This document shows, piece after piece, positions 2,817-62,896 of a stretch of DNA of 64,000 bases. The notes under the pieces are model-generated. The model did no database searches and had not been told where the DNA came from. It saw nothing but the letters and a program-made list of their open reading frames with translations. Source of the DNA: Sphaerolaimus hirsutus (taxonomy: Eukaryota > Nematoda > Chromadorea > Monhysterida > Sphaerolaimidae); assembly GCA_964036195.1 (NCBI GenBank), contig OZ038458.1, forward strand, positions 25,495,832 to 25,559,831. The letters run 5' to 3'. Each line of letters opens with the position of its first letter. The stretch's first letter is position 1. The position numbers and the translations under genes were made by a program.

Positions 2817-5812
2817 CTGTACACCACCATACGTCACATTTATGTTAAGCCCCAAAACATCTGCAAAATTTTAATTAAATAGGTTCATTTAAATCAGCCG
2901 ACCATCAAATTTTTAAACCTACCCCCTCCAGAACCAATCGCCCAGTATAAAACATTGGCAACCCATAAATTTACCAAAGCCATTCAGTTGCCGTGGTAGA
3001 GTTGACTCGCTTTGACTTGACAGCTGCTTGACCACATCAGCGTGATAACTCAGGGCGCGCTGCAAAGTAAAGATGGTGCAATAAATTGGTTAGAGACTGT
3101 ATACTTACAAGGAAGAAAAAGGTCTGACTCGGGTATTTTGATGTATTTTTAAGCATGATTTTTTAATTTGCTAGAAATTATCGATATCCGATATAAAAAT
3201 ATTCGATACTCGATAGTCGATGAGATAATATCTATCATGATCATATTATATTATGACTTGACGCGGTTGACAATTCAAATTCACTTTCAAATATTGATAA
3301 TTTAAAATTTCGGTATAACGGTCAAACCCTGTCCTAAATAAATATTATCAAAAGTACTGAAAATTTAGTTGAAAATAAAATAAAAACTGTACCATCGGCG
3401 GCAACTGACGACCAAAGCCGAATGTTTTATCATCCACCACAAACATGGAATCAGAACTCGATTGGAAATCGAACGGCAAAATTAGATCGCACAACAACTT
3501 CTGGCCATCGTTGTTCACGAAAGGATCGACTGAAAATGGAAATGTACGGTTTTGGCGTGAATCCAAAATAGATTTTTGAGCAGCCAGAAAAATCGATGCT
3601 GATTTGAAAAATCGAATACAGGTGTGAGAGTATTTTAACTAGGGTGTCAAATTTCCGTTTCCGAAAGCAAATTTTTCCGTTCACAAGGCTGAATTTTTCG
3701 TTATTTTTCCGGCCACTCAACTTTTTGTTCCATTTCTGTTTCCGTTTTTCCAGCATATTTTTCCGTTTCCGGCTCAATTTTCAGTTTTGCCGCCTTTTTC
3801 CGTTTTCCGGCTAAATTTTCGGTTTTTCCACTTTTTCCATTTTTCAGCTCAATTTTCTGGAAGTTTTTTCCGTCTCATATTTCCTTATTCCGGCTCAACT
3901 GTCTGTTTTCTGTTTCAGCTAAACTGGTAAACATGCATGCAGATTTTCAATTATGTGAATTTTTTACATTTTCCATCAGAATTTCAGCAATTTTTTACTA
4001 TTTCCAGCTAATTTCAGCAAAATTTTTTCATTTTCCAGCAAAATTTCAGCAATTTTTTCTGTTTCTGTGCAAATTTCATTTTTCCGGCGTTGTTTTCCGT
4101 TTTGCGACTACTGAAACGAAATTTCCGTTTCCGTTTTCCGGCAAGTGCAAAAAATTTCCGTTTCCGTTTTCCGTAACAAATTTTCTTTGACACCCTCATT
4201 TTAACAGATAAAAAACGGAAAAAACAACAGTAGATAAAAACCGACGCATTTGAATAAAGGCCATCCTGTCGCACAACTCTGCAGTAAATAACTGATTCGT
4301 GCACAAATCGTCTCTTTTTTGGCACGTTGAAAGGCGGAGTCTAATGGAAAACGGTAGCGCGGCCGGCGGCCCCTTCTGCTGCAGCGACCGGCTCATTTTG
4401 TAGGCTTTTTTACACGGGACCGACACAAATTGACCAAAGTCTACGAGATACACCTGAAATTTTTCAGTGAGCATGCAGTGGGGATTTGAGTTCAAACATT
4501 TTCTAGACATTATTGCTAGGGTTCAAACGGAATCCCGATCCGGAATCCCAAAAAAGACACTCCCGATCCGGGATTCCCAAAAAAGCCACTCCAGATCCAA
4601 GGAAAACCAATCCCGTTTGAACCCTAATTATTGCCCCCCTTCCCGGATCAGACATAAAAAAGACTTGGACTGAATCAATCACTTGGAATAAAATGGACTG
4701 AAACTACCTGCTCAGAGAGGTACAGAAAAACTTGTAAATAAATACACTCACATCGAGCCTGAAAGGCACCTTGGCGTCATACACGACACCTCTGTAATAA
4801 TCTTCATACTGCTGCACAAAAACCAATACAGACGCGCCAAAACTTGGATTGTGGTAAACACTCTTTGGTCGCGTCGCCTGGTGGAGAAAAACAATTTACT
4901 TGTTCAGGGGATCGTGGGAATTACTGTGATTATGAAGCTTTTCATTTATAGCGCTGATAATTACCAAACCAATGTTTGATCAACTATACTCGGCGGACTC
5001 ATTCATGTCTTACGTTGGAAGCGTGCCAATGATGATAAAGCAAGCGATTTTTGTAAAAAAGGTGAAAAATCATTGTTGTGCATAAGTTAACGTATAGCGT
5101 TATAACAGAGATGACTTTTTCAACTTTGTATGAAAATTGTATGCGTTGGCACGCTTCCAGCGGGAACCACGCGTTAAGGGTGTAAACTGACTGGAGTATG
5201 TTAATGGAAAAGCGACAAGGAACAACGGCGCCATTCAGAAAAAAAAACGCTAGGCGCTGTAGAGGTGGCGCACTACAGTGTCATTAAATTGCGCCAATCC
5301 ATCACTATTATTGAAATACGTAATACCACAATGTAGAAAAGAACCCTGCCTGACTGACCAACACTTCAATCTCTCGCCGAATAGAGTCAGCAGAAACTAG
5401 CTGATCTAACAACTGCAGCCCCATGCCGTCCGGGCCATCTAGAAGCAAGGAAAGGGTGAATTGACCATAATTTAAGAAGTTGGACGAGTGCCAAATAAAA
5501 AAAATTGCGCAAACCATCGGCGTGGCAAACCAGTCCATAAGGCCTGGTGTCCCTCAGTTCTAACGGCGGATAGTCGCCAATCTGCACCCTCCAAGATTGA
5601 TTAACCTCGTCTGAAATCGCAAGCGCGAAAACTTTATCGCCCGGTTCAAAAAATAAAGCCCACAAAAAAACACGTCTCTCAAAAAAAAATGGATCAAACT
5701 TACCGTGAGTGACGACCAACAGACGGGGGTCTCCGGATTTTTCGGGAGGCTTATTGAAATTGGGGGCCGGCGGCGCTGTGAACATCGGCTGCCGAAGAGT
5801 GACAGCGGACAT
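2817..5812 (-). CDS. Tudor-domain protein (eight exons assembled, 3' end unresolved)
   Basis: The minus-strand exons are 5704-5812, 5515-5610, 5320-5438, 4752-4877, 4246-4453, 3393-3529, 2975-3059 and 2817-2860. They total 924 nt (308 codons) in one frame with GT-AG introns throughout and matching phases. The start ATG at 5812 has an A at -3 and an in-frame stop 18 nt upstream. Residues of about 90-190 form a Tudor fold: the EVLVSQAG lead strand, the YYRGVVYDA strand, then VYLVDFGQFVSV, the family's signature strand-turn (normally xFIDYGN), and the ALPFSIRL strand that opens the extended SN-like half. Tudor domains bind methylated arginine, often in piRNA or RNP assemblies; that role is inferred here. 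The donor after exon 3 (GTATTT) is weak; a read-through form would stop at 5308. The donor after exon 8 lies in a repeat hairpin and no certain next exon was found. Introns 1 and 2 are only 93 and 76 bp; others contain MITEs. Exact paralogue not recognised. Confidence 0.8.
3640..4197. mobile_element. hAT-like MITE made of TTTCCG repeats (Tudor-gene intron 5)
   Basis: The ends TAGGGTGTCAAATTTCCG and its imperfect complement are flanked by a perfect 8-bp duplication, ATTTTAAC, at 3632-3639 and 4198-4205. The body is a degenerate short tandem of TTTTCCG and TTTCAGC motifs. It lies within the intron between the Tudor exons 4246-4453 and 3393-3529. The terminal sequence and 8-bp duplication fit the hAT superfamily. 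Confidence 0.85.
4517..4626. mobile_element. Short hAT-like MITE (110 bp) in Tudor-gene intron 4
   Basis: The inverted ends begin TAGGGTTCAAACGG and a perfect 8-bp duplication ATTATTGC flanks it (4509-4516 and 4627-4634). The interior repeats CCCGATCC and GGAATCCC. Similar CGATCC-rich copies occur at 44903-45266 and as a fragment near 43040-43110. Confidence 0.85.
5015..5160. mobile_element. Small MITE with GGAAGCGTGCCAA ends (Tudor-gene intron 3)
   Basis: GGAAGCGTGCCAA at 5017-5029 and its exact complement at 5146-5158 bound about 145 bp of AT-rich sequence. It lies in the Tudor-gene intron between 4877 and 5320. No coding capacity is visible. Confidence 0.6.
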
Positions 5813-7376: not shown

Positions 7377-8344
7377 GTGCAGTCCCAGTCCCAGACCCTG
7401 TAAAATCTCAAATGTAATGCAGAGTTGTTACAAGTACCGAACTTTTTCAAAGTATACGTAAACGTAAAGTATTTATTTTTTACTCACCCCTAAGTACAGA
7501 AAACGTAAAGTAAATTTTTTTACTTTTACTCATGAGTAAACGTGAGTAAACGTACTTTTCCCGCAGAAAACGTAAACGTGAGTACTTTTGAGAAATGTCG
7601 CCAAAATTTTCGAGAAATGTTGCTCAAAATTAGGTATTTTCAAAACTTTTTGCCTATTTTACGCAATTTTTGACTATATTTTTGGTTCTATACCCATTTT
7701 CGACTAGTTTCATGTATTTTTAGCTAATTTTCTTCGTTTTTTTCCCTTCTATGCCTTTAAAGACCTATATAAAAGGTTATCTAAAATACGTTTTCTGTAC
7801 TCGAGTACTTTCAAAAAGTATACGTAAAAACGAGTACCAGAACTTTTTTCGGAGGAAACGTAAACGTATTTACCCTGTACTCGAGTATACGTATTTATCG
7901 AGTAAAAGTAAATACGTTTTAACAACTATGATGTAATGTAAAGTATAAAGAGTCATGTAAAATGCCCTGCAAAATGAAAACGAAGTTAGCCATTTTACAG
8001 GGCATTTTATATGACTTCAGACACTTTGCATGACATTTGACATTGCCCAGGTCATTTTACATGGCGTTAGACACTTCGCATGACATTTTACAGGGTATTT
8101 TACATGATTTTAAACTGTTTGCGTGGAATTTGGCATATTACTGGGCATTTTCAATTTTATAGGGCATTCAAATTTTACATGGTATTTTACTTGACTTTTT
8201 ACATTTTACAGGGTTTTTTACTTAACTTCAGACACTTTGCACGGCATTTGACATTTTCCAGGTCATTTTACATGCCTTTAGACTTGCATTTAGACCCTGC
8301 ATGACATTTGACAGGGCATTTTACACGGTCTGGGACTGCCCCCT
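7377..8344 (+). mobile_element. Non-genic copy of the introner family, split by a hAT-like MITE
   Basis: The left end GTGCAGTCCCAGTCCCAGACCCTGT (with a small duplication) and right end GGTCTGGGACTGCCCC match the ends of the four arrestin introns. The interior repeats CATTTTACATGAC and TTTGCATGACATTT many times. The hAT-like element at 7420-7930 is inserted with the duplication ATGTAATG; removing it restores the typical introner subterminal sequence. No exon is recognisable on either side. Confidence 0.85.
7420..7930. mobile_element. hAT-like MITE (CAGAGTTGTTA family) nested in an introner copy
   Basis: The ends CAGAGTTGTTA and TAACAACTATG are inverted and flanked by a perfect 8-bp duplication, ATGTAATG, at 7412-7419 and 7931-7938. 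The body consists of AAACGTAAAGTA, GAGTAAACG and CGAGTACTTTCAAAAAGTA motifs shared by copies at 15536, 24640, 33598, 40321, 43434 and 50334. This is the most widespread family in the window. Confidence 0.9.
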
Positions 8345-15123: not shown

Positions 15124-15285
15124 GGGGCACTCCCAGAGCCTGTCAAATGTCATGTAAAATGTCATGCAAAGTGTCTGAAGTCATGTAAAATGCCCGGTAA
15201 AATGGCTTTTACCGGGCATTTTACATGACTTTAGACAATTTGCATGACATTTTACAGTACATTTTACGGGGTCTGGGATTGGTAC
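15124..15285 (-). mobile_element. Non-genic introner-family copy, minus orientation
   Basis: Read on the minus strand it starts GTACCAATCCCAGACCCCG and ends CTCTGGGAGTGCCCCCAG, so even outside a gene it keeps the same left/right asymmetry and splice-like ends. The interior is the CATTTTACATGACTTTAGAC palindrome. It is flanked by GC-rich sequence on both sides. Confidence 0.85.
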
Positions 15286-17888: not shown

Positions 17889-20800
17889 ATGGCCGTGGAA
17901 TCGTGGCGTTGCAGCGACGAGGTCTGGGTGGGCGACCAGTACATGCGCGCCCCGCCCGCCGCCATGCGCCAGAGTTACTCGATCGCCAGAGCGGCAGTTG
18001 CCGCCGAGCTGCCCGAGCTGCCCAACGGATACGCTACTTCGGATAGAGCTAAAGCGGCTGTTAAGACGGCAGGTTTTGGACGTCGGTTTTTTTAATCCAG
18101 TTTTTTTGGAGTTAACGAAATTGCTTGAAAAATCCCCCCCCCCCCCCCCCTCTACAAGACGGGTGAGGAAAAAAATCCCCCTTAAGGCATAAATGTGATC
18201 AATTTGTTATCCCAATTTGAACAAAAATGGCATGTTATATTGTTTATAAACCATATTTTGTGCAATGGGTTGAAATTAGATGATATTCAGAAACATGCTT
18301 GAAAAGTTTGACGAAATAATAATTCCTCCCTTTGAATAATTCCCCCTCCCCTCGAATAGTTCCCCCTGAAAAAAGTTCAATGAAGAAATAAGTCACCACG
18401 GAATTATTCGAGCAAATACGGTACTTTGTTGATTTGAGTAAATTGCTACTTTGAATAACTCCCCTGTATCAGCAAGTGTGTCAGCAAAAAAGCTGCCATG
18501 TATTGGCCCCGGTGATTGGCAATGAAATTGGCAGAATTCATTTACACCGCACAAAAACAATTATGATTAGTAAATACAAATATATTCAATATTTTGCGTG
18601 ATATGTACTCTTGTTTCGCTATTGTGATTTGTGATTGATAATTTTTTTACTAAAAAAAGTGATGATGAAAAAAACTCCCTCGCCGTATCAAAAATATGAC
18701 TCCCAAAGCTGGTTACTGTCCTGAATACCAAAATGAAAATTGGAGGTAATAGGTAGACACAGTGAAAGTAGACAGATGGCCGCACCACCTGATATTTACA
18801 CATCTAAGTATGCACACAGCGACCGCACAATACCCACCGCACCGGCGCAGAGATTCACATGCGCGAGTCTACCGACACCGCATTCGTGCAGCACCGACGG
18901 CACCGCTACCTAAAGCGCTACGAAGCGTCGCCGAGCCACGACGCCGCTGCAAGTTCGTTGAACATGGCGAGCACGTCGAACGGGGAGAACGGGCGCGACG
19001 AGGCCGCCTGGTGCCAGTCTCGGACTCTGGGAAATGATCTGGGAGATGGGAAATGTCATGCAAAGTGTCTAAAAACATGGAAAACACTTTGCATGACATT
19101 CTACATTTTACAGAGCATTTTACAGAGTCCGGGACTGCCCTCAGGGTGGACGAGCACGAGATGTTCTCCATGGAGAACAGGGAGAGCGGCGTCACTGTCG
19201 ATTTGGACGCCCTGTCGCCGGCGCAACTGGAACGGTTGGAACAGAAAATCGTAAGTTGACGGCAGTGCACTGACGATGGAAAACCATCTGGAAAAAAACT
19301 TTTTTTCAACTTTAGGGTTTTTTTTAAAATAACTTTTAGAATTTCGATTTTTTTTTTCTGAAAATAATTTGTCTAATTTTCTAATTTTTATTTGCGACCG
19401 TTACAGTGGACGCACAGTGCGCTGCATCTTGGTGTGTATGTTTGTGTGTCAATCTATTTCTATATGCGTTTTATAGATATAAAAAGGCCATATTTATGAT
19501 GCAATTTTTATATTTGAATTTCAACAATGAAAATTCTAAACAAATTTCGTCGACAAAAACGCCATTTTCTCTCAGACAATCTCCCCTGTGCAATCAGAGG
19601 ACTGCGAGCAGCCGAGCACATCCAATCAGCACCAGCCGCACAGCATGCACCAACTGCACCAGCAGTTCAGACACTCGAACAGGTGCCAGTCCCGGAGCCT
19701 GTTAAATATCCTGTAAAAGTGAAATGTCATGCAAAGTGTCCAAAGTCATGTAAAATGCCCTGCAAAATGGCAAAAGTCATGTAAAATGCTCTGGAAAATG
19801 GCAAACGTGTTTGCCATTTTCCAGGGCATTTTACATGACTTTTGACATTTTCCAGGGCATTTTACATGGTGTTTGACATTTTCCAGTGCATTTTACATGA
19901 CTTTGGACACTTTGCATGATATTTCACATTTTACAGGACATTTAACAGGCTCTGGGACTGCCCCAGGATGAGCGGCGACAGGGCAAGCCACGGCCGGTCG
20001 CCGTCGCGCCGCGGCAACGTGCAGCGCACTTCGAGCAGCGTGCCGCCGCCCAGCGCGCACATCGTCACCAGATTCGGCACGTTTGACATATTTTATAAGA
20101 ACTTGGAGACCGCATATTTGGGCGACGTACTGCATGGATGGATGGAGCTGCAGTTGACTAGGTAAGTTTTCGATTGAGGGCGATTGAACAATTCGGTTTG
20201 GTAATTGCGGTAATAAAGGCGCCGACGGGCGCCCGGCCAATTTTCCGGCACTTTTCTTTTATTAGCTCTGGTTTATCTGAAGGTATTTTTGTTGCGTGTT
20301 TTGTGGGTTCGAAATGTGTTTTCAAATGTTTTTAGGGTTTTTTAATGCCGGACTGCAGTCGTTTTTCAAAACGCCGCCTGAATGTTTGCTGTGTAGTAAA
20401 TATGATTTTAGAGTATACCGTAAATATTTGCATCAACAATTACCCTTCTTGAGTAGTCCCCCCCTCAAAAAAAGTCACCCAAATTCCCCTCCTCCCAGAC
20501 CAATGGATATCATCAAAATGACCGTTTCATTCTACGGAGAAATTACCTACACCATCGGCGGTGCTCCATCTCGAACGGCCCGCTTCGAAAGGCAATCCCA
20601 AAATTTATGGCGTGCGCCAAGAGCGAAAAATGAAAGGAACCGCGGAATTTCAACTGCGGCGCACATCGCACCGGGATTTTATGTGTACGAGTTTTACGTT
20701 GGGACGCGAATCGACTTGCCCAGTGCATTTGTCAGCAAGGAAGGGGCTATTAGCAGTTTGGTCTACTATTGTGAGGTGTGTTACTGCTTTGTTACTCTCC

Positions 20801-23800
20801 AAAACTACCGTATTTGCTTGAATAGTTCCCCTTTAATAATCACCCCTGTTAGACAAGTGAGGACAAAATTATCTCCCTTGAATAATCCCCTTTTGCATAA
20901 TTACCCCGTGAAAAAGCCCCCTTGAATAATTCCCCCCTTAAGGCATATGATCAAGTGGTTTTGTTCAGTGTGAAGAGAAATAGTAAAGTTATGTTATTTT
21001 GAGAATAGAGCATACCTAAACACCTTCCCGGTCAAGTAAGCCACCCATTTTTTTATTTCATTTCCGAAGCTATGTCTCGGGCTATGGTGGGGTTATAGAG
21101 CTGAATCTTTGTGAATATATACTTGTAACATCCCTCTACTCTGCATCAATGGGGGGAGGCATGGCGACCAACTACAGGGTGGGTTGCCCTATATGCAACA
21201 ATTTTTTGCCAGGTTTTCAGTGTCCGAAACAAGTACACCACCCACTTGATTAGCTACACTAAAGGGGCTGTATCTCCAGTTGTGGGGGTGGTAGAAAGCT
21301 AAAATTTGAGGGGTATCTTGGCAACACCCACCCCTACTATACGCCAGTGGGGCAGCTCCCGACGACCCACTACAGTTTGTGCCGCACTGTAGTAAGTTGT
21401 TGTTTTTTTTAAACCACCCAAGTGTCCCAAGTAAGTTCACCACCTAAAGGAATTATAAAAATTTTTTGAGAACACACCCTATATAAAAACTGAATCATGT
21501 TTTCACCCTGGTTCTGCTAATTAAAATTTTTTCCTTTGTTTAGCCACCCTCATCATAAATGGCAGACCAAAAATTTCACTTTAAACCAATTTTTTGCTCC
21601 ACACTTTAAAAGTTGGTTTACAAAGTTCAGTAGAGGAGGGTCTAAGTTTCAAAGTTATGTAAACAACATGACCTCCAAAATGGCAACAAGGAAATTTATT
21701 TTGGGTGGAATGAAAAAGTGAAAATTCTGTAAATTTTTGTTCCTGCAATGACATCATTATGACATCATAGAATTCACCCAAAAATTTCACCCAAAATAAA
21801 TTTCCTTATGTTGCCATTTTGGAGGTCATGTTGTTTACATAACTTTGAAACTTAGACCCTCCTCTACTGAACTTTGTAAACCAACTTTTAAAGTGTGGAA
21901 CAAAAAATTGGTCTAAAGTGAAATTTTTGGTCTGCCATTTATGATGGGGATGGCTAAACAAAGGAAAAAAATTTAATTAGCAGAACTAGGGTGAAAACTT
22001 GATTCAGTTTTTATAAACACCTTCCCGGACAAGTTCACCACCCATTTTTTTATTTCACTTCGAATGCAATATCTCTGTCCATGGGGGTGTTATAAGGCTG
22101 AAACGTTGTATATATAAAGTTGTAAGACCCCCTTACTCCCCAACATGGGGGGAGGTGCGGCGACTCACTACAGGGTGGGTCACCCTATATGCAACAATTT
22201 TTGTGGCGGTTTTGGTGTCCCAAGCAAGTTCACCACCCACTTGATTAGCGACACTTTGAAGGCTATATCTCCAGCTGTGAGGGCGGTAGAAAGCTGAAAT
22301 TTGGGGGATGTCTTGCCAACAACCCCCCTCACAATACACCAGTGGGGCGGCTGCCGACGATCCACTAAAGCATGGGTCACTGCATATAAAGTTGATAATT
22401 TTTTTAAGAACAGCTTAAGTGTCAGAAACAAGTTCGCCACCCAGCTGCATTACAAAAAAATGTTGTGAGAACATACCTGATATAAAATTGAATCAGATTT
22501 GAACCCTAGTTCTGCTCATAAAAATTTTTTCAGTAGGGCACCCACCCTGTCCCATAAACAGCGGACTGAAAATTTCACTTTAAACCAATTTTTTGTATCA
22601 CACTTAAAAAGTTGGTTTACAAAGTTCACTAGAGGAGGGTCTAAGGTTCAAAATTATGTAAACAACATAACCTCTAAAATGCTTCCATAAGGAAATTTAT
22701 TTGGGGTGAATGAAAAAGTGAAAATTGTGTCAAATTTTGTTCCTGAAATGACATCATTTTGACATCATAGAATTCACCCCAAGTAAATTTCCTTATGGAG
22801 GCATTTTAGAGGTTATGTTGTTTACATAACTTTGAACCTTAGTCCATTCTCTAGTGAACTTTGTAAACCAACTTTGTAAGTGTGTAACAAAAAAATGGTT
22901 AAAAGTGAAATTTTCATTCTACCGTTTATGGGACAGGGTGGGTGCACTACTGAAAAAATTTTTTTGGGTTGAAATAGTGTTCCAACCCGATTCAGTTTTC
23001 CAACCCGATTAGGTATGTTGTTGCAACATTTTTTCAATGCAGTTGGCTGATAAACTTGTTTTGGGACACTTGGGCTGTTTTTAGAAAATGGTCAACTTAA
23101 TATGCAGTGACCCATGCTTTAGTGGGTCGTTGGCAGCCGCCCCACTGGTGTATTGTGAGGGGGTTGTTGGCAAGAACTCCCTTAAATTTCAGCTTTATAC
23201 CGCCATCACAGCTGGAGATATGGGCCTCATAGTGTAGCCAATCAAGTGGGTGGTGAACTTGTTTGGGACACCAAAAACGCCAAAAAAATTTGTTGCATAT
23301 AGGGCGACCCACCCTGTAGTGAGTCGCCGCACCTCCCCCATTGTTTGGGAGTAGAGGGGTCTTACAACTTTATGTATACAAAGTTTCAGCTTTATAACAC
23401 CCCCATGGACGGAGATATTGCATTCGAAGTGAAATAAAAAAATGGGTGGTGAACTTGTCCGGGAAGGTGTTTAAAAGGTATGTTCTCAAAAAAAATTTTT
23501 AGTTCCTTTAGGTGGTGAACTTACTTGGGACACTTGTGTCGCTTTTTTTAAAAAAACAACAACTTTATACAGTGTGGCACAAACTGTAGTGGGTCGTCGG
23601 GAGCTGCCCCACTGGCGTAAAGTAAAGTGGGTGTTGCCAAGATACCCCTAAAATTTTAGAGTTCTACCACCCCCACAACTGGAGATACAGCCCATTTAGT
23701 GTAGCTAATCAAGGGGGTGGTGTACTTGTTTGGGACAATGAAAACCTGGCAAAAAATTGTTGCATATAGGGCGACTCACCCTGTAGTTTGTCGCCATGCC

Positions 23801-26271
23801 TCCCCCCATTGATGCAGAGTAGAGGGATGTTACAAGTATATATTCACAAAGATTCAGCTCTATAACCCCACCATAGCCCGAGATATAGCTTCCGAAGTGA
23901 AAGAAAAAAATGGGTGGCTTACTTGACCGGGAAGGTGTTTATTTAGTGAAATGATTTGATCGAAAAATTCTCTAAAATTTTGACGAAAAAAATTCTTCCC
24001 CTTGAATGACGCCCCCCTCAAAAAAAGTCTGACGAAAAAATAATTCCCCAGGGAATTATTCGAGCAAATACAGGGTATACACGCAGCAATTGTGCACACG
24101 CAGTGCACTGCACTCTACCCTGAACCAACACAGGTGCGCATCACCGAGGCCAGACCGGCGCCGCCCAACTCTCACCACCCGCGCGCCGTGGAGCACATCA
24201 AGCGGCGGCCGGCCTACCTGCGCACGTCGCCCGGCGCCGCGCCGCACCAGGTGCCTGTCCCAGACCCTGTAAAATGTCAAATGTCATGTAAAGTGTCTAA
24301 AGTCACGTAAAAATGGCAAACGTACGTTACCGGGCATTTTACCGGGCATTTTACATGACTTTGGCACTTTGCGTGACATTTGACATTTTCCAGGGTCCGG
24401 GACTGCCCCCAGCTGTGCAAGCGTATCACCGCGCCGGAGCGCGCATTGGGGGGCCGCGCGTCGGCGGTGGTGCAGCGCTGCGTGCTGCCCGTGCGCAACG
24501 TGCTCGACCCCAGCGGGTGCGTCGTGTGCACGGTGCACGTGGCGCAGCGGCAGTGCGCCCCCGGCGACAACCTCGTGTTCAGCGTCGAGGTGCTCAACTG
24601 CCATAGGCAGCTGCGCGTACACGCCACGCTCATGCAGGTCGGAGTTGTTGGAAGTACGAAACTAATTAGGTATAAATATGTAAATGTAACGTATCTACCG
24701 TATTTACTCGTAGTAAGGGAAGGGCGAAACCCTGCAAAGGGGTAGGGCCCTGTATCCCATTGGTAAATAATAATAATAATAACTCGAATAATTCCCCCGG
24801 GGAATTATTTTTTCGTCAGACATTTTTGAGGGGGGAACTATTCAAGGGGGGAATTATTCAAGTGGGGGGATTATTATTTCGTCAAAATTTTTAGCCATGT
24901 TTCTATCACACTAAATACGCATCCTGTTTCCACTGGTAGTGCACATTACATTGCATCTTTGAACACCGGATGTACTGCATTTACATTCTGTGAATGAAAC
25001 CACACACAGCTCTTTTGCTTGGGTTGACTTCATCGATAGTTTTTTTAATAAATGTGCATATTTACACTACCTTCCATCATTTGGGCGGGGGGATTATTCA
25101 AGTGGGGGAATTATATTTTCCTCACTCGCCTAACAGGGGGGAATTATTCGAGTGGGGGAATTATTCAAGTGGGGGGAATTATTCGAGTAAATACGGTATT
25201 TTAATTTTATTTTACCTATTTTTTTAGGTATTATACCTATTTATTTTTTACTTACCCCCAAGTGCAGAAATGTAAAGTATGTTTTTTACTTTCTCTCATG
25301 AGTAAACGTGGGTAAATTGCTTTTTTCCTGGAAAACGTAAAAGTGAGTATTTTTGAGAAATTTTGCCAAAATTTACAATCCAAATCACTAATTTTCATAT
25401 ATTTTGCTCATTTTCATGATCAAATTCGCCTAAGTGTATTAAAAAATTTTCTTGCCATATATATACCTATATGATCTTACGTACCGATTTTTGTATATTT
25501 TTCTTTATTTTTAGTTTTTTCACCCTTTGTCACTTCCGTGCCTTGAAAAAGTTTGAAATGTTTAACAGAAATACGTTTTATGTACACGAGTACTTTCAAA
25601 AAGTATACGTAAAAGCGTGTACAGGAACTTTTTTTCGGCGGAGGCGTAAACATATTGACTCTGTACTGGAGTATATTTACGTAGGTATTTATCGAGTAAA
25701 AGTAATTAGGTAGATACATATTTGCAACTGTGAATTGCAGGTGGCCAAGCTGGTCGGCCGGCCGGCGGACACGTACGGCGGCGATTTGGTGCGGCACACG
25801 CTCTACCGCATCAAGCTGGGCACGGTGGCGGCGGCCGAGTCGGCCAAAACTTGGGCCGGACAGACGGTCTGGGTGCCGCAGCCGAAACTCGTGCCCGTGC
25901 ACATCAGCCAGGTGCCAGTCCCACACCCTGTATAGTGTAGAGTAAAGTATCAAATGTCAGGTAAATTGCCATGACAAATGTTAAGTAAAGTGTCAATTGT
26001 CACGTAAAGTTCAGTAATAATTTTTTTGCGTTTTGATTGACATTTTACTTGACATTTGACACTTTACTCTACACTTTACAGGGTCTGGGACTGCCCCCAG
26101 ATACACAGGGCGCGCATGGTTTTTCTGGGCTACCACTTCGTGCTAAGCGTCAAGCCACTTGTGGGGAAGGGAATCGATTTGCAGATACCCTTGGTTGTGA
26201 GAAACTCGATTAGACCGGTCGCTAGAAAGTATAGGAGTGGGTTGATTCAATCCGGCGCGGTCACATTGTGA
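17889..26271 (+). CDS. Alpha-arrestin-like (arrestin-domain) protein, ten exons, about 570 aa
   Basis: The exons are 17889-18072, 18851-19010, 19145-19250, 19576-19682, 19967-20161, 20499-20775, 24134-24250, 24413-24637, 25741-25911 and 26101-26271. They sum to 1713 nt in one frame with matching phases. Residues 1 to about 190 form a Ser/Gln/His-rich extension without a recognised domain. The arrestin N fold follows: FDIFYKNLETAYLGDVLHGW (the NPExYxPGDxVxG position), IIKMTVSFYGEI, GFYVYEFYVG, LPSAFVSKEGAISSLVYYCEV. The C fold has CTVHVAQRQCAPGDNLVF, VHATLMQVAKLV and ends DLQIPLVV. The family links membrane cargo to ubiquitin ligases and trafficking; no PPxY motif is visible in the short tail. 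Exon 1 and its junction to exon 2 are least certain (GTTTTG or GTTAAG donor). Introns 2, 4, 7 and 9 are introner elements and intron 8 is a hAT-like element. An AATAAA lies at 26476. Confidence 0.85.
18073..18850 (+). other. Arrestin intron 1
   Basis: It contains a 14-nt C run (about 18137-18150) and a truncated element of the TACCGTATTTGCTCGAATAATTCC group at about 18330-18425. It ends with a CACCGCACCGGCGCAG acceptor; an alternative acceptor lies at ATGCACACAG near 18820. The donor choice is uncertain, so the 5' part of this gene needs transcript support. Confidence 0.5.
19011..19144 (+). mobile_element. Introner A: element-derived arrestin intron 2 (134 bp)
   Basis: The intron runs exactly from GTGCCAGTCTCGGACTCTG to CAGAGTCCGGGACTGCCCTCAG, which are inverted copies of each other apart from the outermost bases. 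Excision joins codon TG+G (Trp) and restores the frame AAW-VDEHEMF. The interior is the ATGTCATGCAAAGTGTC / GACACTTTGCATGACAT type palindrome (here AACACTTTGCATGACATTC). This copy is the shortest and most diverged of the four. Confidence 0.88.
19683..19966 (+). mobile_element. Introner B: element-derived arrestin intron 4 (284 bp)
   Basis: The intron starts GTGCCAGTCCCGGAGCCTG and ends GGCTCTGGGACTGCCCCAG. Excision joins AG+G (Arg) and gives HSNR-MSGDRAS in frame. Almost the whole intron is one palindrome of CATGTAAAATGC and GCATTTTACATGAC blocks. The exon flank is AACAG and the intron ends CCCCAG, so CAG is repeated on both sides. Confidence 0.92.
20776..24133 (+). other. Arrestin intron 6 with three nested elements
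   Basis: The intron joins YYCE to VRITEAR in phase 0. It contains a TACCGTATTTGCTTGAATAG element (about 20807-24074), inside which sits a foldback element (21018-23940), inside which sits a second foldback copy (22015-23472). Almost none of the intron is unique sequence. Confidence 0.8.
21018..23940. mobile_element. Long foldback element with a second copy nested inside
   Basis: Ends AAACACCTTCCCGGTCAAGT and its complement mark the outer copy. An inner copy with AAACACCTTCCCGGACAAGT ends occupies 22015-23472. Each copy is about 1.46 kb and nearly fully palindromic, with centres near 21740 and 22770 in ATGACATCATxxTGACATCAT. Related copies lie at 59748-61202 (intact) and 36699 to about 38775 (interrupted). 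No ORF is conserved between copies. Confidence 0.9.
24251..24412 (+). mobile_element. Introner C: element-derived arrestin intron 7 (162 bp)
   Basis: The intron is bounded by CACCAG, GTGCCTGTCCCAGACCCTG on the left and CAGGGTCCGGGACTGCCCCCAG on the right. Excision joins GAAPHQ to LCKRITAPE in phase 0. The interior (TGTAAAATGTCAAATGTCATG and its complement) matches the other copies closely. CAG occurs immediately before the left end and as the last three intron bases. Confidence 0.93.
24640..25734. mobile_element. hAT-like MITE that constitutes arrestin intron 8
   Basis: The intron spans 24638-25740. Two bases after its start comes CGGAGTTGTTGGAAGTAC, the diverged left end of the CAGAGTTGTTAAAAGTAC family, and its right end (CGAGTAAAAGTAA then TTTGCAACTGTG) stops eight bases before exon 9. 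The flanks read ATGCAGGT on the left and TTGCAGGT on the right (7 of 8 identical); the right copy starts two bases beyond the canonical CTGTG end. A TACCGTATTTACTCG element (24695-25198) is nested in it. Splicing joins ATLMQ to VAKLVG. Confidence 0.75.
24695..25198. mobile_element. Nested TACCGTATTTACTCG element
   Basis: The ends TACCGTATTTACTCG and CGAGTAAATACGGTA are exact complements. The interior repeats GGGGGAATTATTCAAG and related words. It sits inside the hAT-like element forming arrestin intron 8, so it arrived later. Confidence 0.8.
25912..26100 (+). mobile_element. Introner D: element-derived arrestin intron 9 (189 bp)
   Basis: Boundaries are AGCCAG, GTGCCAGTCCCACACCCTG and CAGGGTCTGGGACTGCCCCCAG. 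Excision joins PVHISQ to IHRARMVF in phase 0. The subterminal sequence differs from the other copies (AGTGTAGAGTAAAGT and its complement), so this is a distinct subfamily with the same ends. Confidence 0.93.
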
Positions 26272-27046: not shown

Positions 27047-30000
27047 TTACTTCTGCCCTCTCAGCTGAGCATTGGTTCTGTACAAGACGCACACGGCGGC
27101 GGACAGCATGGACAGCAGGCAGCACAGGAACAAGCCGGGCACGAACAAGAGCCGCAGATCGACGCAGTCCTTGTGCCCGTGCGACAGGCGGCCCAGCGCC
27201 GAGCGGAATCTCTCGTCCGACGATTCCAAGCCGAAGTCTGGTTGGGGGGAAAAAACGATGAAAATGTGACGTTTTGAAAAAAATTGTGACGTTTTGTAAA
27301 AAATTGTGACGTTTTAAATAATTACCACGTTTTGAAAAATTGGCGCCACGCACGCTGTATGTCCACTGATTTCGTGTCAACTGAATTTTAAAGTGAAAAA
27401 ACTAAATAAAAATAGTGATTTTCACATAATGACACATTTTCATTGTTTCTGTTAAGTCTGATGCTTTTAGAAGTTTGTGTTTTTCAGTTGACATTGAGTT
27501 GACACGAATTTGCGATGTCAACTAGCTGGTGTGGCCACATCGTTACGTTTTCAAACATAAAAAATAAAAATGCAAAATCAAGCTCACCAGCCACAGGATC
27601 AATAACATCAATCTGTCTTGCAATCACGGTGACCTCAGTGACGGCCGGCTCGGCTTGTTCGGGCTCGAAACTGGACACGGAAGCGACAACGCCGCTCACT
27701 TCAATGTTGTCGTCGGCGTCACGTTTGAGACGTTGGGAGAACACGCTGCGCACCGGCAGACCGACACCGATGGAACATTGCGGTCGCTGCGGGGGGGGGG
27801 GGGGGGAGTTGGATGGTAGTGACGATTTATGGGCCATGGACCGCATGCTATGCATTTTCTGAAGGAAACACTCCGGCATGACGTCAAGATTAATCAAATC
27901 AACAGTTTTCCGAAAAGGAAGAAAAAAACGTTTCCGAAAAAAGACAGCCGTCAAAAAACATTGTTGTGAAAGTGCATGCATAAGTATCCATGCATGTGCT
28001 CGCATGTTAGTGACAAAGACATACATAATTTTGGACGCATGCCAATTAGGAATTGGCGGTCCGATGAGTATGATGTTGTTCAATTGCCAGATCCATACAA
28101 TCACAAGTGACAACAAAATTTTATTCTACAAGACAGGTTTCAACTGACAATATGTTTTTCAGTATATCATATAATTTATCTAAGTTTTCTTGCCGCCAGC
28201 ATTCAATTCCTGTATATAACTCCCAACTTTTTTAATTGGAATGGTACGCAATTGCAGGTGAAGGTACAATGTCAAATTTCAAGAATATAATTATTTTGTA
28301 AACTGAATTTAGGTAGATTCACAGTTGGTATTGTAGTAGTTGATGAACTTACTACAAGATAGTAAATAAGTTCAATCAACTATTTACTACAGTATGAAAG
28401 TTGTGACTTCACCCTTGTGCCAATTCCATACCCTGTAAAATGTCCTGTAAAATGACAAATGGCAGGCAAAGTACCAAAAGTCACGTAAAATGTCCAGGGA
28501 AATGGCAAATGTCAAATGTCAAAGTTTGCATGACATTAGACGTTGTACAGGGCACTTGCTCTTAACGTTGAAAGATCTGCGGGATCAGAGCCAAGGTAAA
28601 AGTGTTAAAAAGCCAAAATACCCACCGGGCAGGTGTCATCGCGTTTAATATCGAGTCTGACGGAGCACTGGAAATTGACGACAACTTTGTCTGCAAACTT
28701 GAAAGCGTGCGCCTCCTTGGAAACCATCAAATGGTTCGGCGGGTCATTGTAATCGAGGTTTTGCAGCAGAAATTTGTCAATTTCACACCTGCAAAGCGGA
28801 GCGACAACGTAAAACGTCACAAAAAACGTCACTTCAACGTAAACCGCAACGTCAATCAAAATCTCAAACAAAAATCACCCAGCCTCGTCGAGCACCATAG
28901 CCTCAGTACCCGAGTCATCTCTCACGAAGCACGAATGTACAGTCATGCACCACAGTCCGGGGGCACTAGAATCGCAGGTCCACTTGTGCAGGAGCTTGTC
29001 GCCCACGGCCACGATGGTGGCTGGGTCTTCGGTTTCTAGTTCTAGGACTTCGTACCGGCACCGGGGCATCTCGGCGAATACGGTGTTGGGGATGAGGTCT
29101 TTCATGCTGCAGTTGGGGGGGGGGGTAATGGGGTGAGGCACGGTAGTATACCACTGAAACTCATATGTTTTAAACAGATTTGTGTTTACCAGTAGTTGAA
29201 TTGTTTTTGATCACCACACCATCAACACACATTAGTTGACAAACCTCTTTTTCTGGTCAACTCAAAAGTGTTCAAAACAAATTTGTGAGTTTCCAAAATT
29301 TTGGTAGTGTACTAGTGTGTACAGTGCCAATGTGGTGAGGCTCGCTCGAAACGCGAAAAAGTGCACATTTTTCACTCAAAGCGGCCCTTTTTATCATTTG
29401 AGTGGTTATGCGCCTACCTGACTGTCAGCGGGAATGTGACAGTTTTCTCTGTTTCCATGTAAAAGCAGCTGATTTCGAAACCTCTGTCGACTTTGGTGAT
29501 GAAATCTTCATGGAAAGAGACCATCACGCGAACATTGACGTAGAGACCCGGCGGGTTGTCCTGTAGGGAGTTTGTTGGGAAAAAGTAAATTTATATATAT
29601 TTAATTTATACTTATCACGACATCGCGAGTACTTATTTACATTTTACACATGCTAAGCCTTTTGCTAAGCCACTTATAAGCACTCATGACAACACAATGT
29701 TTTAAAATAATCACAACTGTGAGACTGCGCATTTTTAGGACAATATTTGATAGTTTTTCCTGAGCAGCATCGCAATATTTAAATTACATTGATTTAAATG
29801 AGCTTTGCATATCTATGCCAAATTGATAATCTCGCAGACACACCGTGGGCTCACACAGACTAGTTGACATCGCAAATAAATGTCAACTAAAGAATACAAA
29901 AAAATTCAAGAGCATCACACTAAACGGAAACATTAAAAATTGAGTGCCACGGTATAAAATCAACTATGCCATCACATAGAAAAATAAAAATCACATACCT

Positions 30001-59465: not shown

Positions 59466-59584
59466 CTGGGGGCGGCCACGCACCCTGAAAAGTATCATGT
59501 AAAGTGTCAAATGTCAATTAGAATATTTTCCGACATGACATTTGAAAAAATTGAATGACACTTTACGGGGTGCGGGACTGCCAC
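59466..59584 (-). mobile_element. Introner-family copy with intact splice-like ends, minus orientation
   Basis: On the minus strand it reads TTCAG, GTGGCAGTCCCGCACCCCG at the left and CAGGGTGCGTGGCCGCCCCCAG, TCACC at the right, with CAG on both sides. The interior (AAAGTGTCATTC and TTGACATTTGACACTTTAC) is short and palindromic. Excision would join two minus-strand frames in phase 2, but I found no acceptor upstream, so no gene is claimed. Confidence 0.8.
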
Positions 59585-62721: not shown

Positions 62722-62896
62722 CAGGGGCAGTCCCAGACCCTGTAAAACACCCTGGAAAATGTCAAATGTTATGGAAAATGACCTGTAAAATGGCAAACGT
62801 ACCTTTGCCATTCTGCCGGGCATTTTACATCACTTTAAACACTTTGCATGATATTTGACATTTGACATGACATTTGACAGGGTTTGGGACTGGCAC
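62722..62896 (-). mobile_element. Introner-family copy with intact ends, minus orientation
   Basis: Minus-strand ends are GTGCCAGTCCCAAACCCTGTC and AGGGTCTGGGACTGCCCCTG. The interior palindrome (TACATCACTTTAAACACTTTGC and complement) is well preserved. It has no flanking exon that I can recognise, so it is a candidate recent non-genic insertion. Confidence 0.85.

Follow-up and report, generated by a model that had tools for sequence, protein, structure and literature searches.

Copies of a hairpin-forming inverted-repeat element as probable introners in an arrestin-like gene of an animal genome

The window is a stretch of 64,000 nucleotides (C14:25495832-25559831) from a genome of 348 Mb in 762 contigs. 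On its forward strand lies an arrestin-like gene, whose nine coding exons are listed in Table 1. Four of the eight coding introns each consist of one whole copy of the same element, and these copies are flush with the splice sites. Counted from the ATG at 18964 they are introns 1, 3, 6 and 8. The numbering 2, 4, 7 and 9 of nine, used in the earlier note, requires one extra upstream intron compared to the present model. The other four introns (19251-19575, 20162-20498, 20776-24133 and 24638-25740) carry, in this order, the donors GTAAGT, GTAAGT, GTGTGT and GTCGGA. Other repeats are also found in this gene. Intron 5 contains a large palindromic element (21017-23941) with outer arms of 315 nt (21017-21331 and 23627-23941) that are 96% complementary, and GGGGAATTATTC-like repeat units are located in and beside the ordinary introns (20436-20934, 23989-24080 and 24690-25190).

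The gene had been described as an arrestin, and this identity could be maintained only in a weakened form. When the product was searched against Pfam as separate halves, Arrestin_N (E 0.0011) and Arrestin_C (E 0.12) were matched in the expected order, each along most of its profile; both matches, however, remained under the curated cut-offs. The whole 471-aa product matched Arrestin_N alone (E 0.0064). Because of these sub-threshold matches, and because no arrestin was found among the PDB matches of the product, the gene is called arrestin-like and is regarded as divergent. Its predicted structure is of low confidence (mean pLDDT 35.6), exons 1-3 are without a domain and no close paralogue was found that could serve as an empty site. 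GC is highest at the third codon position in every exon, in exon 5 only slightly.

Table 1. Features of the window, in window coordinates. The lengths of the four element introns include the final CAG.
Feature	Position	Strand	Description
Arrestin-like gene	18964..26271	+	471-aa open frame, ATG at 18964 to stop at 26271, nine coding exons
Arrestin-like gene, exons 1-5	18964-19010, 19145-19250, 19576-19682, 19967-20161, 20499-20775	+	
Arrestin-like gene, exons 6-9	24134-24250, 24413-24637, 25741-25911, 26101-26271	+	
Candidate introner 1 (coding intron 1)	19011..19144	+	134 bp; flank CTG, GTGCCAGTCTC ... GGGACTGCCCT, then CAG; phase 2; hairpin -0.53 kcal/mol per nt
Candidate introner 2 (coding intron 3)	19683..19966	+	284 bp; flank CAG, right end one C shorter, then CAG; phase 2; hairpin -0.67 kcal/mol per nt
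Candidate introner 3 (coding intron 6)	24251..24412	+	162 bp; flank CAG, GTGCCTGTCCC ... GGGACTGCCCC, then CAG; phase 0; hairpin -0.54 kcal/mol per nt
Candidate introner 4 (coding intron 8)	25912..26100	+	189 bp; flank CAG, GTGCCAGTCCC ... GGGACTGCCCC, then CAG; phase 0; hairpin -0.50 kcal/mol per nt
Compound or broken copy	7383..8342	+	two profile clusters, 7383-7430 and 7930-8342
Free copy	15124..15285	-	left GTACC, right CAG; profile 99.3 bits; joined frame unconvincing, no intron role seen
Free, partly decayed copy	28417..28557	+	profile 69.5 bits
Free copy	59469..59584	-	CAG on both flanks; profile 42.9 bits; joined frame unconvincing, no intron role seen
Full-length free copy	62724..62896	-	left flank CCG; profile 141 bits; joined frame unconvincing, no intron role seen

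All four element introns were found where the earlier note had placed them, and they are alike up to both splice borders. The start it had given, GTGCCxGTCxC, is present in all four. The end GGGACTGCCCxCAG applies to three, whereas the segment ending at 19966 reads GGGACTGCCCCAG and is one base shorter. When these and the four other introns are removed, the frame stays open over the full 471 aa, as had been claimed, with the element introns in phases 2, 2, 0 and 0. Retention of introns 3, 6 and 8 would add three, three and five stops, respectively; retained intron 1 adds no stop, but its length of 134 bp shifts the frame. The weak Arrestin_C match extends across the junction of the fourth copy, located after residue 110 of the queried half. 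Identity among the four is 60-81% over aligned columns. Since they differ in length and interior and lie between unrelated exons, we take them as separate insertions. Splicing to another AG within the final 60 nt would put three of the four introns out of frame; the 284-bp intron has two such AGs, 18 and 30 nt from its end, that would preserve it. A TTTAC motif located 22-23 nt upstream of the acceptor in two introns, with TTTAAC and TTTTCC at this place in the remaining two, faintly suggests a branch point.

Seven flush candidates were folded: the four in the arrestin-like gene, one in a kinase gene and two more (L038 and L048), all discussed below. All of them form an end-to-end hairpin, with energies between -0.38 and -0.67 kcal/mol per nt. 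The stem starts at nt 3-5 and stops 5-7 nt short of the last base. With 30 mononucleotide shuffles per sequence as reference, z ranges from -6.3 to -20.9. For two of the ordinary introns in the arrestin-like gene the values are -0.22 and -0.23 kcal/mol per nt (z -3.4 and 0.8). The element folds in this way because of its inverted repeats, and the hairpin need not be functional. It would nevertheless keep both splice sites close to each other and might compensate for the weak donor GTGCC.

The typical ends of the element, read by eye, are GTGCCAGTCCCAGACCCTGTAAAA and TTTTACAGGGTCTGGGACTGCCCC. They had been described as inverted copies of one another, which holds for most of their length but not for the tips: the left end starts with GTGCC and the reversed right end with GGGGC. 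Only one orientation of the element therefore starts with GT. In the genome, GTGCCNGTCNC gave 6542 matches compared to 1302 for the reversed pattern. A strict two-ended pattern (exact 11-bp ends, elements of 133-193 bp) gave 499 copies compared to none for its reverse; on these two comparisons chance is excluded. The strict copies are flanked (left/right) by CAG/CAG in 179 cases, CTG/CTG in 94, CTG/CAG in 42 and CAG/CTG in 13, with other flanks in the remaining 171. Concordant flanks (179 + 94) thus prevail over discordant ones (13 + 42; Fisher p 3e-34). As this agreement goes far beyond chance, the element duplicates a 3-bp CWG target upon insertion. Inverted repeats and concordant CWG flanks together constitute the signature of a mobile element. 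Intron 1 of the arrestin-like gene is itself of the CTG/CAG type.

Two observations concern relatives and copies of the element. At L031:5000-5240, another palindromic element with CAG as left flank starts GTGCCAGTCTCACATA but differs in its interior, suggesting that there are several related families. In L041, L042 and L043, three near-identical neighbouring regions, the same CTG-flanked element is present at 5000-5179; given the near-identity of these regions, it was copied together with its surroundings.

Many copies of the element are not introns. A profile of the element detected 14 clusters in the window, ten of them outside the arrestin-like gene, so the free copies claimed nearby are real. 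Over 28 loci and the window, 92 clusters were found; this number is no estimate of density, because the motif itself was the criterion for choosing the loci, and L041-L043 are nearly the same sequence. These many free insertions, and the 3-bp CWG duplication that would supply the acceptor, go beyond the earlier note.

Copies of the element are found as candidate introns in two unrelated genes: the arrestin-like gene and a kinase gene on contig C1 (L037). In the latter, an element (5000-5191; left flank AAG, right flank CAG) lies flush between the codons for GTGNFAK and VFK, and splits the glycine-rich loop of the kinase. When pieces of the downstream exons are added by eye, the product has a PF07714 match (protein tyrosine and serine/threonine kinase; E 5.8e-43) that covers residues 28-226 and thus includes the junction, which follows residue 35. 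Tyrosine kinases fill the best 60 of its 989 PDB matches, in which the alignments begin past the junction. The catalytic loop of this kinase (L037:7220-7429) reads HADLAARN, where the usual form is HRDLAARN. In L038 and L048, CAG-flanked flush copies also leave an open joined frame. By eye, L038 was taken for an ABC transporter, for which no match was obtained in Pfam or PDB; the frame of L048, despite being open, has no family or structure match and no third-position GC bias. Among the 23 copies outside the arrestin introns and the 14 candidates (overlapping sets) whose joined frame was tested, the kinase was the only one with a family match across the junction.

If neither insertion preference nor selection is at work, CAG and CTG targets are expected to be equally frequent in the orientation of the element. 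This is nearly the case for left ends regardless of element length, which are preceded by CAG 1706 times and by CTG 1494 times (p 2e-4); for the strict copies the ratio is 179 to 94 (1.9:1, p 3e-7). Left ends outside the four strict classes lean far less (1514 to 1358, 1.11:1), and compared to these the strict copies are shifted towards CAG with an odds ratio of 1.71 (p 4.5e-5). The discordant copies are the cleanest test, because neutral decay yields CAG/CTG and CTG/CAG equally often whatever the insertion preference, unless mutation differs by side. Here, CAG is on the acceptor side in 42 copies and on the left side in 13 (p 1.1e-4). Both the CAG excess of the strict copies and this discordance fit selection for splicing. 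A context effect on mutation at one side could contribute to the 42:13 ratio, and right ends that carry CAG along may be a source of it as well. When the CTG/CTG and CAG/CTG counts are taken as neutral baselines, introns may account for roughly 85 + 29 = 114 of the 328 strict copies in which both flanks are CWG. Because only one of the four arrestin element introns (the one at 25912) has the strict pattern, the true number may, again as a rough estimate, be a few hundred. A sister family with the ends GTGCCAGTTCC and GGAACTGGCCC also has a GT end and CWG flanks, with 10 CAG/CAG and 19 CTG/CTG copies (p 0.14). It shows no CAG excess, which argues against a built-in orientation bias and indicates that more is needed than a GT end and a CWG target. 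At L040:9724-9892, the joined frame around a CTG-flanked copy of this sister family is open for 95 aa, the only match being at chance level (E 0.15).

The following mechanism is proposed. A non-autonomous inverted-repeat DNA transposon (MITE) would insert at CWG and duplicate these three bases. Its left end, GTGCC, could act as 5' splice site, and if the target is CAG on the coding strand, the right-hand duplicate could act as 3' splice site. The resulting arrangement, CAG|GTGCC...GCCCC-CAG|, would thus obtain its donor GT from the element and its acceptor from the duplicate, and removal of the element plus one CAG would restore the exon. This removal would be performed by the ordinary spliceosome, possibly helped at the weak donor by the end-to-end RNA hairpin, which would bring the splice sites together. 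Well-spliced copies would survive in exons, while others would be lost.

As far as sequence goes, the element qualifies as an introner. The best reading, to which we assign a probability of roughly 0.86, is that these are introners in an animal genome, derived from a CWG-inserting inverted-repeat MITE. It is supported by the flush ends, the target duplication, the open spliced frame, the flush copy in the kinase gene and the two genome-wide signs that involve a CAG acceptor. A more far-reaching proposal is offered only tentatively: hundreds of introns would have been made by one hairpin MITE family, with a CWG-targeting transposase that duplicates a whole acceptor whenever the insertion site is CAG, and with a hairpin that aids splicing in place of a strong donor.

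Three other explanations have to be weighed against the introner reading. The elements could have landed in pre-existing introns, the older intron sequence being trimmed later, in which case the introns would not be element-made. Such nesting does occur: in L030, two elements are nested in an ordinary intron, the gene being one whose PHD-finger match falls just short of the cut-off (E 1e-4). All four arrestin copies and the one in the kinase gene coincide with the intron borders to the base, however, and three of the four arrestin copies still have CAG on both sides, as is expected of an insertion into an exon, which makes this origin very improbable. We consider it about as improbable, if not slightly more so, that the gene model is wrong and that the insertions lie in decayed or non-coding sequence whose frame is open by accident. 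The sub-threshold Pfam matches, the PDB search without an arrestin, the lack of a close paralogue and the domain-free exons 1-3 would speak for it; against it stand a frame of 471 aa over nine exons without a stop, the third-position GC in each exon and the corresponding arrangement in a gene that clearly encodes a kinase.

The genome-wide CAG excess could also reflect an insertion or mutation preference of the element instead of splicing, and the slight lean to CAG of the other left ends points in this direction. The discordant flanks cannot come from an insertion preference, though, and the sister family lacks the excess. This explanation is unlikely, if less so than the other two, and it would leave the arrestin and kinase cases untouched.

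The 3-bp duplication hints at a PIF/Harbinger-like transposase. A 3-bp CWG duplication and terminal inverted repeats are indeed present, a trait that fits other superfamilies with 3-bp duplications as well, and membership of PIF/Harbinger is accordingly suggested only faintly. A CWG target occurs in some animal Harbingers. PIF/Harbinger MITEs share with the element the 3-bp target duplication, short inverted repeats and no coding capacity, but the target given for Tourist is TWA, in contrast to the CWG of the present element (PMC9710019, PMC12595863). In L009-L028, a family of Harbinger-type (PF13359) transposases is found, with many near-identical copies across the genome, which looks like a recent burst; each match is interrupted by an intron-like stretch with stops. 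This abundant family had 163 matches when 150 out of 306 candidates were scored. Its right end was read at 20 loci; in 19 of them it is GTGTGCGTGGGGCC or a similar sequence, followed mostly by AAT or ATT. It was rejected as partner, as this end differs from that of the element and no introner-type ends bracket the transposases (right ends only, one family). Among the transposases read, none has element-matching ends, and a comparison of the lone left ends in L030, L031, L046, L048 and L007 among loci for a longer element yielded no autonomous element.

Introners are a known kind of element that is rarely reported from animals. Those of Chrysochromulina sp. likewise bring their own 5' splice site, obtain the 3' splice site from target duplication and occur in many copies as introns that are similar end to end (Gozashti et al. 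2022, PMC9860276). They differ in their 4-bp duplication, and are described there without inverted repeats; here, the duplication is 3 bp (CWG), the inverted repeats are long, the host is an animal and splicing is predicted. The introner elements of Amoebophrya share inverted repeats at both ends, direct repeats of 3-5 nt at the exon borders and a predicted hairpin joining the exon ends, but have mostly non-canonical splice sites and a dinoflagellate host, in contrast to the GT-AG found here (PMC7789003). According to the 2022 survey, introners were detected in 175 of 3,325 genomes, and the only two groups that had them within animals and land plants were animal groups (PMC9860276). In a literature search judged by titles, no paper describing the present element was found. 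A 2025 paper reportedly deals with horizontal transfer of introner-type transposons, so that other animal cases may be in print.

The origin of new introns is a long-open question. This genome would provide an animal introner system in which intact copies are numerous, the target rule is simple and CAG versus CTG insertions serve as an internal control. With these, the birth of introns, the cost of splicing and the effect of the hairpin would become directly measurable.
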